DNA of 41,578 nucleotides, taken from the NCBI GenBank assembly GCA_015066525.1, contig SVOG01000058.1, forward strand, positions 1 through 41,578, given 5' to 3'. Below the pieces are notes generated by a model. That model worked only from the letters and a program-made list of their open reading frames with translations. It made no database searches and was not told the DNA's origin. Both the position numbers and the translations under genes were made by a program. This DNA comes from Oscillospiraceae bacterium (GTDB taxonomy: Bacteria > Bacillota > Clostridia > Oscillospirales > Acutalibacteraceae). Positions 7,155 to 31,798 of this stretch are shown here, one piece after another; within the stretch, counting starts at the first letter, position 1; every line of letters begins with the position of its first letter.

Positions 7155-9527
7155 ATGATGAAAAAGACGGTTTCTGTTTTTCTCTCAGTGCTGCTGGTTT
7201 TTCTGGGTATCTGTATTCCTGCGTATGCTGAGGAAAACATCTATCAGAATAACGCTATTGAGCATGCAATTGTCCACGACCCGTCCATTTTTCGCGATAA
7301 GGACGGCAAGTACTATGTTGTCGGCTCCCACTTTGCGATGGGCGAGTCAGAAGACTTAATTCATTGGAAAGATGACGGTTATACTTACGATAACGACTAT
7401 CTCACGGCTGACGGCAAAGGCTGGAAAGAGGTCCTCAGTGAGCCTCTTGAATGGACCTCGCGCTATCAGCTCGCCGTTCCCGAAAAGTATCATCCCGACG
7501 CACTCGAGTATAACGACTGGGCGCACGATATTATCTATAACGAGACGATGGGAAAATATTGTCTCTACGGCGCGGTATCCGTATGGGGCGCAACTTCATC
7601 AGCAATCTGGCTCTGCGTTTCTGATAATGTGAAGGGTCCCTATGAGTATGTGGATACCTTTATTTACAGCGGTATTACCAATCCCAAACTTGAGCATATT
7701 AACAATGTGAATAATAATATCCTTGATGAGGACGGAAGTATTCACGAGGACCCCGTCATCAAAGCACTTTCTTACCGGTATACCAATATCCCCGAACTCA
7801 TCGACAAGGGCTATATTAACGGCGATATGCTGGATATTACGGGAAATTACCGCCCCTACAAGTGGTTTAATTTCTACGGCGCATATTACTGCTGGGGAGA
7901 GGATGCTTTCCCGAATTGCATTGACCCGACCGTCTTTACCGATAAGGATGGCGAAATGTGGCTCGTTTACGGCTCTTACAGTGGCGGCTGCTTCTTGCAG
8001 AAACTCAATAATGAAACGGGTCTTCCCGATTATGACTATATGAAGGCACATAAGAAGGACGGCTACGATATCTACTACGGTAAGCGCCTGTCCAATACAA
8101 ATGACGGCACGGAAGGAACGGGCGAAGGTCCCTACATTGTCTATGACAGCGTAAGTGATTATTACTATTTCTTCCTCACCTATGGCGGACTTGCCGGTGA
8201 CGGCGGCTATAACATCCGCGAATACCGCAGCAAGACTCCGGACGGTCCGTATCTTGATAAAATGGGAAACGCTGCGACCGATTATCAGAATACAGGACTG
8301 AAACTTGATGCAAATTATCAGTTCGAATGCCAGAAAACGGTGAATCTTTCGGGCGGTCACTCGTCGTGTCTGCTTGATACGGACGGCTCCCTCTATCAGG
8401 TCTATCACTCGCGCTATTCCGCCGATAACGGCATCGGTTTTAATACAAAGGTGCATAAAATGGCACGCACCAAGGACGGCTGGGTCGTGATGCTGCCCTA
8501 CGAGTACCAGGGCGAGAAGATTACCGCGGTTAATGCAGACGATATCCCGGGCACATATCAATTCATTGATAGTACAAATATGACCCACCGTAAGGAGAGC
8601 GGCAGCTCTGAGTGGGAGAGCATTACCGTGCCGACGCAGTACATTTCGCTGAAGGCGGACGGTACCATCACCGGAGCGCGTGACTACGCCTGCACAACTA
8701 CAAATGCGCGTGTGTCCTCCAAGGCAGTCAGCGGTACCTGGAAACTGACTGATGGCGGTGCTTATGCGCAGTTTAAGCTCGGCAGCGTTACTTATGACGG
8801 CGTATTTACAAAACAGAAGGACGAGAGTGCCGCAGGCAGGGAAGTGATTGTGTTCACTGCCGCGGGAACGGATAATTCGACCATCTGGGGCGCGCAGCAT
8901 ACGGAGCATATATTCGATACACCGGCGATCAAGAAGGCGACTTTCTCGTCGGACGGCAAGACTTATACGGCGTGTTCGCTCTGCGGCGCGGAGCAACCCG
9001 ACACGGCAACAAAGATTCCTAAGGCAAAGAATGTCAAACTGTCCGCGACCTCCTATGTCTATTCGGGTCAATACTTCAAGCCTTCTGTTAAACTGACCGA
9101 CAGTAATGGCGCGGTAATTTCTGCAAACTCTTATACTGTCGCATACAGCAACAATAAAAATGTCGGCACTGCTACGGTGAAAGTCACCCTGAAAGGCAAT
9201 TACGCCGGCACGAAAACGCTGCACTTTACAGTAAAACCGAAAGGCACCTCGATTAGTAAACTCACCGCCGCGAAGAAGAGCTTTAAGGTAACGGTGAAAA
9301 AGAATGTAACGCAGACTACGGGCTACCAGTTGCAGTATGCTCTGGATAAGAATTTCAAAAAAAGCGTTAAGTCCGTTACCTTCAGCAACAAGACGACTGT
9401 GGGAGCAGTGAAAGGACTGAAAGCAAAGAAAAAGTACTTCGTCCGTGTCAGAACTTATAAGACAGTCGGCGGTAAAAAGATTTATTCCGACTGGTCCAAA
9501 GTAAAAAGTGTTAGGACTAAGAAATAA
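7155..9527 (+). CDS. Secreted GH43 arabinan endo-1,5-alpha-L-arabinosidase
   Basis: This 790-residue extracellular enzyme should cut alpha-1,5 arabinan from pectin side chains. Residues 1-25 form a signal peptide ending AYA. The five-bladed GH43 core shows D42 (VHDPSIF, general base), D257 (CIDPTVF, pKa modulator) and E324 (TGEGPYI, general acid), plus a GGHSS segment that probably binds metal. The distance from D42 to D257 is longer than in simple arabinanases, implying inserted loops. A GH43 C-terminal domain like that of Bacillus Abn2 follows (about 460-580: GTYQFI, LKADGTITG, FTAAGTDNSTIWG). The last ~170 residues are Lys/Thr-rich and hold an Ig-like module and a fibronectin III-like module ending in YSDWSKVKSVRT. 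No dockerin or sortase signal is seen. The start may be this ATG or the next one at 7158. Confidence 0.9.
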   Translation: MMKKTVSVFLSVLLVFLGICIPAYAEENIYQNNAIEHAIVHDPSIFRDKDGKYYVVGSHFAMGESEDLIHWKDDGYTYDNDYLTADGKGWKEVLSEPLEWTSRYQLAVPEKYHPDALEYNDWAHDIIYNETMGKYCLYGAVSVWGATSSAIWLCVSDNVKGPYEYVDTFIYSGITNPKLEHINNVNNNILDEDGSIHEDPVIKALSYRYTNIPELIDKGYINGDMLDITGNYRPYKWFNFYGAYYCWGEDAFPNCIDPTVFTDKDGEMWLVYGSYSGGCFLQKLNNETGLPDYDYMKAHKKDGYDIYYGKRLSNTNDGTEGTGEGPYIVYDSVSDYYYFFLTYGGLAGDGGYNIREYRSKTPDGPYLDKMGNAATDYQNTGLKLDANYQFECQKTVNLSGGHSSCLLDTDGSLYQVYHSRYSADNGIGFNTKVHKMARTKDGWVVMLPYEYQGEKITAVNADDIPGTYQFIDSTNMTHRKESGSSEWESITVPTQYISLKADGTITGARDYACTTTNARVSSKAVSGTWKLTDGGAYAQFKLGSVTYDGVFTKQKDESAAGREVIVFTAAGTDNSTIWGAQHTEHIFDTPAIKKATFSSDGKTYTACSLCGAEQPDTATKIPKAKNVKLSATSYVYSGQYFKPSVKLTDSNGAVISANSYTVAYSNNKNVGTATVKVTLKGNYAGTKTLHFTVKPKGTSISKLTAAKKSFKVTVKKNVTQTTGYQLQYALDKNFKKSVKSVTFSNKTTVGAVKGLKAKKKYFVRVRTYKTVGGKKIYSDWSKVKSVRTKK

Positions 9528-26351: not shown

Positions 26352-26886
26352 ATACTTCGATGATTTCTGCCGCGTGTTCGGTATATGGAATCAGTTTTTT
26401 CATTATATCCGCCGTTCTGACCTTCATATAGCAGTTATAGGTTCCGTCCGTGCAGCCGTAATCGTCTGAGAGTAACACTTCCTTGTCGATAACGATACGT
26501 ACCTCCTTTGCTGTATCGAGCAGCAGACTGAATACGGTCGTCGCGCCGACATCGGTGTCCATCATCTCCTTGAGCAGTTCACTCGGCGCAAAGGAAACAC
26601 GCGACACACCGAGCGCAGCCCCAAAATTTTTGGTAACAAACGGTTTGTCGCCGGGGGTTACGAAGAGATAGAATTTCGTTTTCTGTCGGTTGCAGAGAAA
26701 GAGTGTTTTTACTACCTTGCAGCCGAGCTTTTTATCAATATCAATGCAATCCTCCATCGTTACGGCGTCTCCCGTGTCGACCCGTTCAAAGGGGATATGG
26801 AGTTCACTGAGCGTCGCGTATACTTTTTCCTGCAATTTTGTTTGATACTCCGTCGGCGGAGTTTTGATGATTTCACTGACATACAT
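26350..26886 (-). CDS. YbaK/ProXp-ala-like aminoacyl-tRNA deacylase
   Basis: The 178-residue protein resembles the free-standing prolyl-tRNA synthetase-associated editing domain (ProXp-ala, also PrdX). Relatives hydrolyse alanine mischarged on tRNA-Pro. Family features are FERVDTGDAVTMEDC near the start, KTLFLCNRQKTKFYLFV with the conserved Lys, LGVSRVSFAPSELLKEMM, the GATTVFSLLLD segment around residue 115, and a VRIVIDKEVL strand. Substrate specificity is inferred. A GTG at 26898 would add four residues; the ATG at 26886 has GGTGA five bases upstream on its strand. It overlaps the end of the phosphoesterase gene by 14 bases and forms a two-gene minus-strand operon with it. Confidence 0.82.
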   Translation of the reverse strand: MYVSEIIKTPPTEYQTKLQEKVYATLSELHIPFERVDTGDAVTMEDCIDIDKKLGCKVVKTLFLCNRQKTKFYLFVTPGDKPFVTKNFGAALGVSRVSFAPSELLKEMMDTDVGATTVFSLLLDTAKEVRIVIDKEVLLSDDYGCTDGTYNCYMKVRTADIMKKLIPYTEHAAEIIEV

Positions 26887-27742
26887 CTGATTCACCAAGC
26901 ACTTTCGTTACCGTTATAACATTGATTTCAGGATGATTAAAGAGACGGAAGGGAAATTCTGCATTTCCGAGTCCGCGGCTGACAATGAGCATCGGTCGCT
27001 CTCCGTGACTGCCTCTTGCGTATTTCGGAAAGAGACCCTGCCCCGGGGAGTAGACCGGTCCGATGAATGGCAGAATGAACTGTCCGCCGTGCGCGTGACC
27101 CGAAAGTTGCAGGTCAAAATCGTACTGATTGTAACCCATTTCCTTTATCATCTCGAAATTCTCGGGAAAATGCGAGAGTACGATTTTATAGCCGCTGAGA
27201 GCAGAGAATTTACCGAATAAAGATGACATATCTTTATACGCAAAAGTGCCTTTCCTGCGTGCCCTGTAATCTTCAAAGGATGCCTGGTTTTCATCGAGAC
27301 CGAGTAGGTTTAAGGTCGTGCCGTTAATTGCAACCGATTTTATCTCATCGAGAAGGACGCAAAATCCGATGTTTTCGAGATCCTCCATCAGGTCGGCAAA
27401 ATAGGGGAGCCGTCTCTCGTGATTTCCGGTAATATAGTATACGGGGGCGATGGTAAGCAGCTCTTTTCCGAATGCCATCATTTTTTCGTAGTTCTTGCCG
27501 TGGTCATTAATGTAGTCGCCCGTGATGACGATGATGTCGGGATGCTGCTCGCGCGTCTTATTAAGCGCTTTTTGAAACGGCTTGGAGTGCAGGTCCGACA
27601 ACTGCACGATTTTCATTTTTTCTTTTATTTCCTTACTTTGCAGCCGATAGCGAGTAATGTCGATTGTATTGTTTTGAAAATAGAGAAATACAGCTATCAG
27701 CACAATCACGATAACGAGTAAAATTATCCAAAATGTTTTCAT
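26873..27742 (-). CDS. Membrane-anchored metallophosphoesterase (YkuE/YaeI-like)
   Basis: The 289-residue protein has an N-terminal hydrophobic anchor (about 3-24) followed by a calcineurin-type phosphoesterase domain. The two-metal motifs are in order: LSDLHS (D-x-H), ITGDYIND (GD), GNHE (GNHD/E), LSHFP and SGHAHGGQ (GHxH). Characterised relatives act on lipids such as UDP-diacylglucosamine or on the cell wall side, but the substrate here is not known. The reading frame is open to 27790; the ATG at 27742 follows GAGGTG with good spacing and starts right before the anchor. The C-terminal GPVYSPGQGLFPKYARG matches this subfamily. Confidence 0.9.
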   Translation of the reverse strand: MKTFWIILLVIVIVLIAVFLYFQNNTIDITRYRLQSKEIKEKMKIVQLSDLHSKPFQKALNKTREQHPDIIVITGDYINDHGKNYEKMMAFGKELLTIAPVYYITGNHERRLPYFADLMEDLENIGFCVLLDEIKSVAINGTTLNLLGLDENQASFEDYRARRKGTFAYKDMSSLFGKFSALSGYKIVLSHFPENFEMIKEMGYNQYDFDLQLSGHAHGGQFILPFIGPVYSPGQGLFPKYARGSHGERPMLIVSRGLGNAEFPFRLFNHPEINVITVTKVLGESDVCQ

Positions 27743-27761
27743 TTTTACACCTCGTACATAT

Positions 27762-27790
27762 ATAATAAAATAAATTATAAAATAATTCAA
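27762..27790 (-). promoter_or_regulatory. Promoter of the phosphoesterase operon
   Basis: Read on the minus strand: TTGAAT (complement of 27785-27790), a 17-base spacer, and TATTAT (complement of 27762-27767). The expected start near 27755 leaves about 13 bases before the ATG at 27742. Confidence 0.7.
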
Positions 27791-27856
27791 TAATAATAAA
27801 GGAATTATTTGTTAATTTGAGTAAATAATACTGACAATAGCCAAATTACTGCATAA

Positions 27857-27863
27857 AGAGGTG
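27857..27863 (+). promoter_or_regulatory. Ribosome binding site that points to the dgt ACG start
   Basis: AGAGGTG is a good Shine-Dalgarno sequence. It lies seven bases before ACG at 27871, the position where the dgt family begins. No ATG, GTG or TTG occurs in that frame until 28117, 246 bases further on. Confidence 0.7.
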
Positions 27864-27870
27864 AACTTTT

Positions 27871-28875
27871 ACGGACAATATTCGCAAGATTACTGAGGAA
27901 AATGAAAAGTTAATACTCTCTTCCCGTGCGACGCTTGCCTGCAACTCGCGGGGCAGAAGCAGAAACGAGGACGAGTGTGATATCCGTACCTGCTTCCAGC
28001 GCGACCGCGACCGTATTATTCACTCGCAGTCATTCAGACGTCTGAAACATAAGACGCAGGTATTTCTCGCTCCGTCGGGCGACCATTATCGCACCCGACT
28101 GACGCACACCCTCGAGGTGGCGCAGATAGCGCGCACGATTGCAAGAGCCCTGCAACTGAATGAGGATTTAACCGAAGCTATTGCGCTCGGCCACGACCTC
28201 GGTCATACACCTTTTGGTCACGCGGGCGAGAGAGCACTCGACGAGCTTTCCCCCTGTGGCTTTAAGCATTATGAGCAGAGCGTACGTGTCGTCGAATATC
28301 TCGAAAAAGAGGGCAGGGGGTTAAACCTTACCGATGAGGTGAAAAACGGTATCCTTTGCCACACGAAAGGCGAGGATGCTTATACACTCGAAGGGCAAAT
28401 CATCCGTATTGCTGACCGCATCGCCTATATTAATCACGATATTGACGACGCCATTCGCGCCGGTGTTATGATGGAAGAAAACATTCCGCTTGAGCTGAGA
28501 ATGAAGCTCGGTATGAGCAAAGGCGAACGGATTAATGCAATGGTGCTCAACGTGATTGAAAACAGCCGCGAGGGCGACAAAATCCGTATGAGCGATGAAT
28601 TTTTCCAATATTTTAATGAACTGCATGAGTTTATGTTTACCGCCGTTTACCGTAATCCTGTTTGCAAGAGCGAGGAGGTCAAGGCGATTGACATGATTCA
28701 TAAACTCTATCACTATTATAACGCAAATCGGGACAAGCTACCCGCCGATTATATTCATATTGCTGAGCGTGACGGATATGAGCGCGCCGTGTGTGACTAC
28801 ATAGCGGGTATGAGTGATAACTATTCCGTCAAGGTATTTCATCAGCTGTTTGTACCGAAATTCTGGATTGAATAG
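27871..28875 (+). CDS. dgt: Deoxyguanosinetriphosphate triphosphohydrolase-like protein, apparent ACG start
   Basis: dGTPases release tripolyphosphate from dGTP or other dNTPs and so limit nucleotide pools. From ACG at 27871 the protein has 334 residues. It starts with the family-like sequence DNIRKITEENEKLILSS, followed by the conserved FQRDRDRIIHSQSFRRLKHKTQVF block. HD metal ligands are H79 (RLTHTLEV), H108-D109 (GHDLGHTPFGHAGE) and D182 (IADRIAYINHDIDD). A stop at 27862-27864 closes the frame upstream. The only standard start, GTG at 28117, would delete 82 residues including H79, so it cannot be right. Alternatives to ACG are a one-base indel in the TTTT run after a GTG at 27861, or an ATT start at 27880. 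It lies 35 bases before dnaG. Confidence 0.88.
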   Translation, partial: TDNIRKITEENEKLILSSRATLACNSRGRSRNEDECDIRTCFQRDRDRIIHSQSFRRLKHKTQVFLAPSGDHYRTRLTHTLEVAQIARTIARALQLNEDLTEAIALGHDLGHTPFGHAGERALDELSPCGFKHYEQSVRVVEYLEKEGRGLNLTDEVKNGILCHTKGEDAYTLEGQIIRIADRIAYINHDIDDAIRAGVMMEENIPLELRMKLGMSKGERINAMVLNVIENSREGDKIRMSDEFFQYFNELHEFMFTAVYRNPVCKSEEVKAIDMIHKLYHYYNANRDKLPADYIHIAERDGYERAVCDYIAGMSDNYSVKVFHQLFVPKFWIE

Positions 28876-28910: not shown

Positions 28911-30644
28911 ATGGCTTTGAACGACAGTTTTCTTAATGATTTGAAAATGCGCACCGATATTAATGACGTCATTTCGACCTACGTGACTCTCAAGCGCAGG
29001 GGCAGGACATATGTCGGACTTTGTCCGTTTCATAATGAAAAAACACCTTCCTTTACCGTCTACCCCGAAACGCAGTCGTTTTACTGTTTCGGCTGCGGCG
29101 CCGGCGGCGATGCGGTCGGCTTTATCCGCAAGATTGAAAACCTTGACTATATCGACGCCGTAAAACTACTCGCCGGCAGGGCGGGTCTCCAGATGCCCGA
29201 GGACGGCTATGACGACTCAATGGCGCGCCACCGCAAGAATATACTTGCCATTAATCGCGAAACCGCTCGCTTCTTTCACTCGTATATGATGAGTGAGGAA
29301 GGTAAGGTGGGTCTTGATTATTTCTTAAACCGCGGTCTCAGTCGCAAGACGATTACAAAATTCGGACTCGGATTTGCACCTAACTCCTGGGACGCACTGC
29401 TGAAACATCTGAAATCCAAGGGGTTCAGTATCTCCGATATGGAAGCGGCGGGCGTGATTAAACGCGGCAATAAAGGTTACTATGATATTTTCAGAAATCG
29501 TGTGATGACACCGATTATCGATGTGCGCGGCAATGTGATTGCCTTCGGCGGCAGAGTGCTCGACGATTCAAAACCGAAGTACATCAATACAGGCGATACG
29601 CTTGTTTATAAGAAAACGAATGAGCTTTTCGCGCTGAATCTTGCCAAGGACAGTGGTGAGGAATCGCTGATTCTTTGCGAAGGCTATATGGATGTTATCG
29701 CGATGCACCAGGTAGGATTTACGAACGCCGTTGCGGGCTGCGGAACCGCCCTGACAAATGAGCAGGTAAAATTGATTTCCCGCTATGCCGGTGAAGTGAT
29801 TCTCGCTTACGATGCCGACGAGGCAGGACAGAAGGCGCTGAACAAGGCGATTTTGCTCTTTAATCATACTGATGTCAAGGTGCGCATTCCCGCACTACGA
29901 GGCGGCAAGGACCCTGATGAAATTATCAAGAATCTCGGCAGAGAAACCTTTGCTGCAATGCTGGAGGGCGCCTCGAATGAGATTGAGTTTGAAATTGTGA
30001 GTGCCCGCAATCAGTACAATATTGCCACCACGCAGGGCAAGATTGATTTCCTGAATGACTGTATTAAGATTCTTAGTAACGTATCCCCGATTGAGCAGGA
30101 TTTATATGTATCCCGACTGTCCGAGGAACTCGGTGTTGATAAAAACAGTATTAGACTCCAGCTTGATTCTTATGCGCGACGCAATGCACGGCGAACGCGA
30201 AAGCGCGAACTGAGCAAAGCAATTTCGGATTCTATCTCAAAGAATCATAAAGAGAGCGTGCAAAATGCTGCCTCCACACGCAAATTGAGAGCGGAGGACA
30301 GGATGCTTGGACTTTTGATGCTCCATCGCTCTTTAATAAAATATACGGATACCTTTGATAGCCAAACATTGAATCCGGGTTTTCACAAGAAGATTTATGA
30401 TTTGGTTTGCGAGCGTATTCGTCTCAATCAGGATATTGACCTCATTCATTTCAGCGATATATTGAGCGATAATGAGATGGGACGCCTCTCAGGTATTATG
30501 GCGCGTGCCGCCGATAGTTCCAACCCTGACGCGGAATTTAAGGACTGTATGCAAATCGTCGGTGAAGAATTCACCAAGGCGGAGAAGAAAAAGACAGATA
30601 TGAAACATATCAGCGATGATGAATTCAGAAAACTGTTTCAATGA
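28911..30644 (+). CDS. dnaG: DNA primase DnaG
   Basis: DnaG makes RNA primers for the replication fork. The 577-residue protein starts with the CHC2 zinc-binding domain (C38, H41, C59, C62 in [13 protein letters not shown] and [13 protein letters not shown]). The primase core ([34 protein letters not shown]) and the Toprim catalytic centre ([27 protein letters not shown]) follow. The C-terminal helicase-binding part is helical. AGGAGG lies just upstream of the ATG. It overlaps an upstream in-frame ATG of rpoD, reproducing the common primase-sigma factor pairing of bacteria. Confidence 0.97.
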
Positions 30645-30670
30645 TGTACATAACAGAGGAGAATAAATAT

Positions 30671-31798
30671 ATGGAAAAGAATTCAAACAATACACCTATG
30701 ACCCCGGATGAGAAGAAGAATGCTGCGTTTAAGAAGCTTGTTGAAAAAGGCAAGGCTTCCGGTCATCTGACCGCGCAGGAAATCGATAATCTCATTGTCG
30801 AGCTCGACCTTGATGTCGACGAACTTGAGAAATTGAATGAGCAGATTGATGCTGCAAACATCAATATTATCGACGACTTCTCCGCGGAAACGCTCGACGG
30901 TATCACGCTCGAAGTTGACCTTCCCAAGGAAACGGACGCTGCCGAGACCATCGCCGTTAATGATAACGCTGCGATGGATGACCCGGTTAAGGTGTATCTG
31001 AAGGAAATCGGTCGCATTCCGCTTCTCACTGCCGAGGAGGAAATTGAACTTGCGATAAAAATTGCCGACGACGATGAGTATGCAAAGAAGAGACTTGCCG
31101 AGGCAAACCTCAGACTTGTTGTCAGTATTGCAAAGCGTTATGTCGGCAGAGGTATGCAGTTCCTTGACCTCATTCAGGAGGGTAACCTCGGTCTGATTAA
31201 AGCGGTGGACAAGTTTGATTATACCAAGGGCTTTAAGTTCTCCACCTATGCAACATGGTGGATTCGCCAGGCGATTACCCGTGCGATTGCGGACCAGGCA
31301 AGAACAATTCGTATTCCCGTGCATATGGTCGAGACGATTAATAAGGTCAAGAAAGCAAAGTCACAGCTCCTTCATGTGAACGGTCACGAGCCGACACCCG
31401 AGGAGATTGCGGAATATCTCGAAATGCCCGTTGATAAGGTGCGCGAGATTCTTCGGGTAGCACAGGACCCCGTATCTCTTGAAACCCCCATCGGCGAAGA
31501 GGAAGATTCGCATCTCGGCGACTTTATCCCCGATGATGATGCACTTGCTCCGGCTGACGCGGCGTCCATGAGCCTGCTCAAGGAGCAACTTGCAGAAGTG
31601 CTTAAGACGCTGACACCCCGTGAGGAGAAGGTGCTCTCTCTTCGATTCGGTCTCGAGGACGGAAACCCGAAGACGCTCGAAGAAGTCGGCAAGGAGTTTA
31701 ATGTTACCCGTGAGCGTATCCGCCAGATTGAGGCAAAGGCGCTGCGTAAACTCCGTCATCCGAGCAGAAGCAAGAAATTAAAGGACTTTTTGGACTAA
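30671..31798 (+). CDS. rpoD: Housekeeping RNA polymerase sigma factor RpoD (SigA)
   Basis: The 375-residue protein is the primary sigma-70 factor. It has region 1.1 (about 1-90, acidic), region 1.2 ([17 protein letters not shown]), regions 2.1-2.4 ([15 protein letters not shown], then [19 protein letters not shown] and [13 protein letters not shown]), region 3 ([17 protein letters not shown]) and region 4.2 ([18 protein letters not shown]). It should recognise the TTGAAT/TTGACA-N17-TATAAT promoters seen in this window. A frame-open ATG at 30641 overlaps the dnaG stop, but GAGGAG before the ATG at 30671 makes the latter the likely start. Its stop shares one base with the next ATG (TAATG). Confidence 0.97.

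Follow-up and report, generated by a model that had tools for sequence, protein, structure and literature searches.

The dgt gene and its missing canonical start

In the window, the 41,578-nucleotide stretch of DNA analysed here, the gene for a dGTP triphosphohydrolase (dgt) has no ATG, GTG or TTG at the position where homologous genes start, which raises the question of the codon from which this gene is translated. Contig C56 of a draft genome (G000; 1.64 Mb in 66 contigs, 73.86% complete) makes up the window. The features of this region are as follows.

26873-27790, minus strand: metallophosphoesterase-like gene, upstream of dgt and divergent from it; best NCBIfam match is phosphodiesterase YaeI, under the cut-off
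27857..27865, plus strand: extended Shine-Dalgarno (SD) sequence AGAGGTGAA; computed duplex with the 16S tail -11.7 kcal/mol, 5 nt before ACG
27861..27863, plus strand: GTG inside the SD, a rival start; in another frame than dgt and 10 nt ahead of ACG
27862..27864, plus strand: TGA, in-frame stop that excludes an N-terminal extension of dgt
27871..27873, plus strand: ACG, proposed initiation codon; in the column of ATG (L003, L388), GTG (L004, L389, L390) and TTG (L387), and also ACG in four species of another genus
27871..28875, plus strand: dgt, dGTP triphosphohydrolase (HD and HD_assoc); 334 codons from ACG, plus stop; NCBIfam and Pfam matches
28117..28119, plus strand: GTG, first canonical in-frame codon; loss of residues 1-82 including H79, computed SD energy 0 (none)
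28911..30644, plus strand: dnaG, downstream of dgt; ATG start, TIGR01391 at 6.7e-132; served as control gene
30641..31798, plus strand: rpoD, downstream of dnaG; NF006666 at 4.9e-176

The product of dgt matches NCBIfam NF002327 (PRK01286.1-2) at 8.1e-153 with 508.5 bits, exceeding the curated cut-off of 393 across the whole protein (aligned residues 3-332), and both the HD and the HD_assoc domains of Pfam are found in it. The metal-site motifs of the family are present, with H79 in THTLEV and a GHDLGH motif, which we take to be metal ligands, and the product aligns with the solved structure 2dqb, presumably a Thermus-type homolog, which has THTLEV and SHDLGH. Purifying selection on the gene is indicated by a dN/dS of 0.05 relative to L004; relative to L003, dS was saturated. 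As a whole protein, the window's dgt resembles the dGTPase family PRK01286 (NF002327), and it is unusual only in its start codon.

Positions 27855-27873 read AAAGAGGTGAACTTTTACG, and the dgt frame opens after the TGA at 27862-27864 as ACT TTT ACG GAC AAT ATT CGC, with the ACG at 27871-27873. Between this in-frame stop and GTG 28117, the frame is without ATG, GTG or TTG. An earlier note on this DNA had described this arrangement, and re-reading of the sequence showed its coordinates, its spacing (AGAGGTG followed by seven bases) and its residue count to be right; its statement that the first canonical codon, GTG 28117, would drop 82 residues including H79 was also borne out. The absence of a canonical start of dgt at the homologous position is thus confirmed. 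That GTG 28117 is the first canonical codon in frame is the argument for a short product translated from it, a reading we regard as extremely improbable given that its computed SD is absent, that H79 and a conserved block would be lost, and that alignment with the nearest species begins at query residue 2-4, covering the lost part. Folding of the dgt leader was not above that of shuffled sequences (z +1.12), with no RNA structure and no Rfam element found in the leader, and a promoter scan, which gave 2 sites against 1.2 expected, was left unused.

The start column in species of the same genus

Eighty genomes of the window's genus were searched and 61 gave a match, 44 of these, besides the window's own, with a readable dgt start and 16 others without one or unread. 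In the six nearest species (84.7-87.1% protein identity), the column of the window's ACG is occupied by ATG in two, GTG in three and TTG in one, and more distant congeners mainly have TTG or ATG, some with one additional codon. Because the six nearest species carry ATG, GTG or TTG exactly there, the alignment indicates that the column is correct and that the start codon turns over at this position, ACG being one transition from ATG. ACG itself was found at the dgt start in none of the 44 congeners, and is kept in that column in four species of another genus. The earlier note had named ATG at 27871 in close relatives as evidence against an ACG start, and this is what two of the six nearest species have, none of the six being the same species as the window's.

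The window's ACG is known from one assembly, and the sole genome available for the species is a 74% complete draft. The main rival explanation is accordingly a base error in that assembly (T to C at 27871, the species having ATG) or a strain variant, that is, a recent mutation or just-lost start. The 44 congeners that read ATG, GTG or TTG, the draft state of the assembly (66 contigs, 73.86% complete) and the single transition that separates ATG from ACG all favor it. Against it, the remainder of dgt is intact and constrained, no stronger case was met among the 285 genes of the scanned portion of the genome, and ACG has been retained in the same column in four species elsewhere, so that it is tolerated there. 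On balance we consider an error or variant unlikely, while giving it real weight.

A second form of assembly error would be a one-base change in the TTTT run at 27867-27870, such that GTG 27861 is the true start and reads in frame with one T fewer. The position of this GTG 10 nt before ACG is compatible with such a change, and L015, with a similar leader, has its GTG in frame with its TTG. This GTG, however, sits within the SD, leaving no space for a second SD ahead of it, the starts of relatives fall in the column of ACG, and a run of four T bases would be an unlikely site for an indel. Furthermore, among 108 genes with a GTG inside the dgt SD, with starts chosen by SD strength, the GTG shared the frame of the start in 40 but not in the other 68, showing no clear in-frame preference and lying near the proportion expected by chance if the SD GTG is not read as a start. 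The extra T proposed in the earlier note as the rival to ACG is thus very unlikely.

ACG at the start of dgt in other lineages

The first survey covered 213 distinct dgt N-termini from contigs of the order and of GTDB and yielded 134 ATG, 50 TTG and 21 GTG starts, with 8 genes flagged. Flagged genes are those without an SD-supported canonical start, with either a single-base neighbor of ATG in the start column (the seven non-canonical neighbors were the only ones scored) or a canonical codon whose SD is weak. Four of the eight (L062, L102, L196 and L105) belong to the weak-SD kind, and the other four are the window (ACG), L039 (ACG), L154 (ACG) and L092 (ATC). Eighty of 585 candidate loci were kept, with more existing, and the 80 further regions consist of the 78 listed places down to G182 plus G013 and G023; of the listed places without a locus, G058 (already included) and G135 were left out, and the weaker ones were unread. 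In G023, dgt looks broken because runs of N fall within it.

The ACG of L039 aligns with the ATG of L035 (69% identity) and is shared by its relatives L251 and L252 (92% identical) and L403 (93%), all four reading GGCGGTGAGATT-ACG-GAR-AAA-ACA at the start of dgt. The next species outside this group, L253 (86%), has TTG in the ACG column. The genus of the L039 group (45 genomes) differs from that of the window (80 genomes), and the two have no listed place in common. The open frame of L251 and L403 starts 5 codons ahead of codon 2, closely preceded by an in-frame stop, and no canonical codon follows ACG for 83 and 66 codons, respectively; in L039 and L252, a GTG with a weak SD (-2.9) lies 8 codons downstream of ACG. 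An ATT, itself a known start codon, stands one codon ahead of ACG in all four species. Since it is ACG that aligns with the TTG of L253, and in view of the spacing, ACG rather than the preceding ATT is favored as the probable start in this group.

Pairwise dS among the dgt genes of L039, L251 and L252 is 1.05-1.40 (three pairs measured), and neutral retention of the three bases in all three would therefore have a probability of only about 1% (approximately 0.6-1.7% for three unchanged neutral sites on a three-branch star tree with branch lengths of 0.5-0.65). Sequencing error appears unlikely as the cause of ACG in this group because four species-level genomes carry the same codon. Beyond the L039 group, the ACG of L154 aligns with the ATG of four congeners (85-86% identity) and has an in-frame GTG inside its SD, and the dgt of L271 has ATA in the start column, likewise with an in-frame GTG inside the SD. 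For the dgt of L092/L220 (Enterocloster isolate BX10), the start column holds ATC, and an ATG comes 6 codons later.

Frequency of non-canonical starts

In order to place these counts, dnaG from the same loci served as the control. Start codons were counted over loci L001-L279 and L387-L407 (300 identifiers), with duplicates, edge-cut genes and alignments beginning after residue 12 dropped. For dgt (n=273), the final counts were ATG 167, TTG 68, GTG 26, ACG 6, ATA 1, ATC 1 and weak 4, and for dnaG (n=263), they were ATG 163, TTG 51, GTG 43, ACG 3, ATC 1 and weak 2. A dgt-specific enrichment of non-canonical starts found no support in these numbers, with similar rates of 8/273 for dgt, a count inflated by the deliberate addition of relatives of ACG carriers and by the choice of the window for its ACG, and 4/263 for dnaG. 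By our own count, the dgt cases represent about five events, namely the window, the L039 group, L154, L092 and L271. A compensation of weaker codons by stronger SDs was also considered and found no support, as SD energies were alike for ATG and for GTG/TTG starts (p 0.59 for dgt and 0.09 for dnaG).

Three dnaG genes (L256, L106 and L188) carry ACG as their start-column codon behind a strong SD, and in two of them, L256 and L106, the SD contains an in-frame GTG. The dnaG of L122 has ATC after AAAGAGGTGAGCTTTT, with a canonical codon absent nearby.

A coding scan of the window's genome covered 358 kb (20 stretches plus the window) of its 1.64 Mb, about a fifth, in which 285 genes were called. 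The 278 genes that were long enough start with ATG (244), GTG (27) or TTG (6), with one at an edge. Five candidates for a non-canonical start were found among the 285 genes called, dgt having the top score, and such starts are rare within the window's own genome. The same scan of 20 stretches around the dgt genes of congeners (298 genes called) gave 4 candidates, only one of which, L302 (ATT), looked convincing. A homology control with 15 families (212 genes) flagged 38 genes, by our reading mostly where the start of the family representative was set inside the gene or where the SD was weak; the clear non-canonical starts in this control, not counting L304 and the family of query L302+287, were the window's dgt and L302 (ATT, with an in-frame GTG in the SD).

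The L302 gene, at position 8743 on the minus strand, is homologous to the metallophosphoesterase-like gene that lies upstream of dgt; its start column holds ATT, and its SD contains the in-frame GTG. In the window's genome, a signal-peptide-like frame of 249 codons at L291:18710 (plus strand), with no NCBIfam match, has ATC after GAGGTGGT, and an ATC start is plausible there.

Comparison with infC and other known non-canonical starts

The gene infC was examined in 17 loci as a positive control, and its N-terminus was available in 16 of them (L320-L335), the copy in the window's own genome (G000) being truncated by a contig end. Following the SD, 15 of these genes have ATC and one has ATT. Six of nine congeners have the layout GAGGTG-TTTTTT-ATC, that is, GAGGTGTTTTTT-ATC, which is close to the AGAGGTGAACTTTT-ACG of dgt. 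This control leans on the known behavior of infC, because 11 of the 16 genes carry an in-frame GTG within the SD and an ATG follows five codons further on in three (L320-L322).

A non-canonical start of infC is documented in S. aureus, and in E. coli the gene is subject to autoregulation; in S. aureus, ccpN and citZ start with AUA and cvfC1 with AUU, with an extended SD for infC, ccpN and cvfC1; and reporters with AUA or AUU yield about 10% of what AUG gives in poor medium, with ccpN reaching up to 30% in rich medium (PMC13009471). A title cited in the same source states that in E. coli pcnB (AUU) an inefficient start codon limits translation, and ACG is unmentioned in its main text (PMC13009471). 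The window's dgt shares two traits of infC/ccpN-type genes, having a near-cognate codon instead of ATG, GTG or TTG at the homologous start and a strong, extended SD at proper spacing (AGAGGUGAA, -11.7 kcal/mol, spacing 5). As in infC (AUU, AUC or AUA), the extended SD is followed by a near-cognate codon; infC, however, encodes IF3 and its codon departs from AUG in the third base, whereas dgt encodes a dNTPase and departs in the second. The S. aureus genes ccpN, citZ and cvfC1 resemble dgt in being conserved or lineage-restricted cases of non-canonical starts in a Firmicute, with AUA and AUU rather than ACG as their codons. With pcnB, which belongs to another organism, is another gene and starts with AUU, dgt would have an inefficient start codon in common.

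Probable initiation at ACG

Taken together, dgt is probably translated from ACG 27871, in a real and inefficient initiation that uses the extended SD and an ordinary initiator tRNA and is presumably sensitive to IF3. The duplex formed by AGAGGTGAA, five bases upstream, would position the 30S subunit, and the ordinary initiator fMet-tRNA(CAU) could pair with two of the three bases of ACG, the first and the third. Initiation at ACG, said to have been a poor start in the all-codon measurement made in E. coli by Hecht in 2017, would then be inefficient, making this a weak start of the infC/ccpN kind. IF3 rejects non-canonical start codons, and the ACG start would be expected to respond to it. We infer that ribosomes initiate at ACG with low output and modulation by IF3; by analogy with the AUA and AUU starts of S. 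aureus (about 10-30% of AUG), the output may be of similar order or lower.

Such a start may also keep the level of the dNTPase low. The earlier note had suggested this as the purpose of the ACG start, and here its proposal divides: the codon gained support from the column of the six nearest species, the strong SD and ACG in four species of another genus, and the purpose did not. As the rate of non-canonical starts is similar for dnaG of the same loci, nothing ties ACG to dNTPase dosage, and weak starts do not single out the dNTPase.

A broader and more tentative idea, which we think possible though somewhat doubtful, is that ACG is a natural start of a small set of Clostridia genes, made up of dgt in several lineages and of dnaG in others, with the extended SD and near-cognate codon of infC and a response to IF3, and that gene callers limited to ATG, GTG and TTG misplace or drop these genes. 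If such an IF3-responsive set exists, dNTP breakdown and priming would follow the stringency of initiation, and dgt offers a concrete gene for the study of IF3-dependent start selection in Clostridia. Few non-canonical starts are known to occur naturally in bacteria, and those in the portion of the literature compared are the third-base variants AUA and AUU; ACG is a second-base variant and, if kept across four species in dgt, would widen the definition of a start codon. Annotation restricted to ATG, GTG and TTG would truncate or lose such genes, at a cost here of 82 residues including the active-site histidine. Among the titles and abstract openings listed by searches of open-licence literature, no ACG start of a bacterial chromosomal gene was found, and no title there relevant to dGTPase together with start codons.

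Two further ways of reading ACG were weighed. We know of no C-to-U mRNA editing of start codons in bacteria, which makes it scarcely credible that the ACG of dgt is turned into AUG in the mRNA, as in plastids. The precedent in favor of it is that plastid ACG start codons can be edited to AUG (PMC9845219). A special initiator tRNA reading ACG found no support among the Met(CAU) and Thr(CGU) genes of G000 and part of G442, the two anticodons to which this check was confined: the initiator-type (C1-A72) genes carry CAU, and those for Thr(CGU) are of the elongator type. Initiation at ACG does not need a special tRNA, since the initiator tRNA of G000 is of the ordinary kind, with CAU and C1-A72, as is its elongator tRNA-Thr(CGU).
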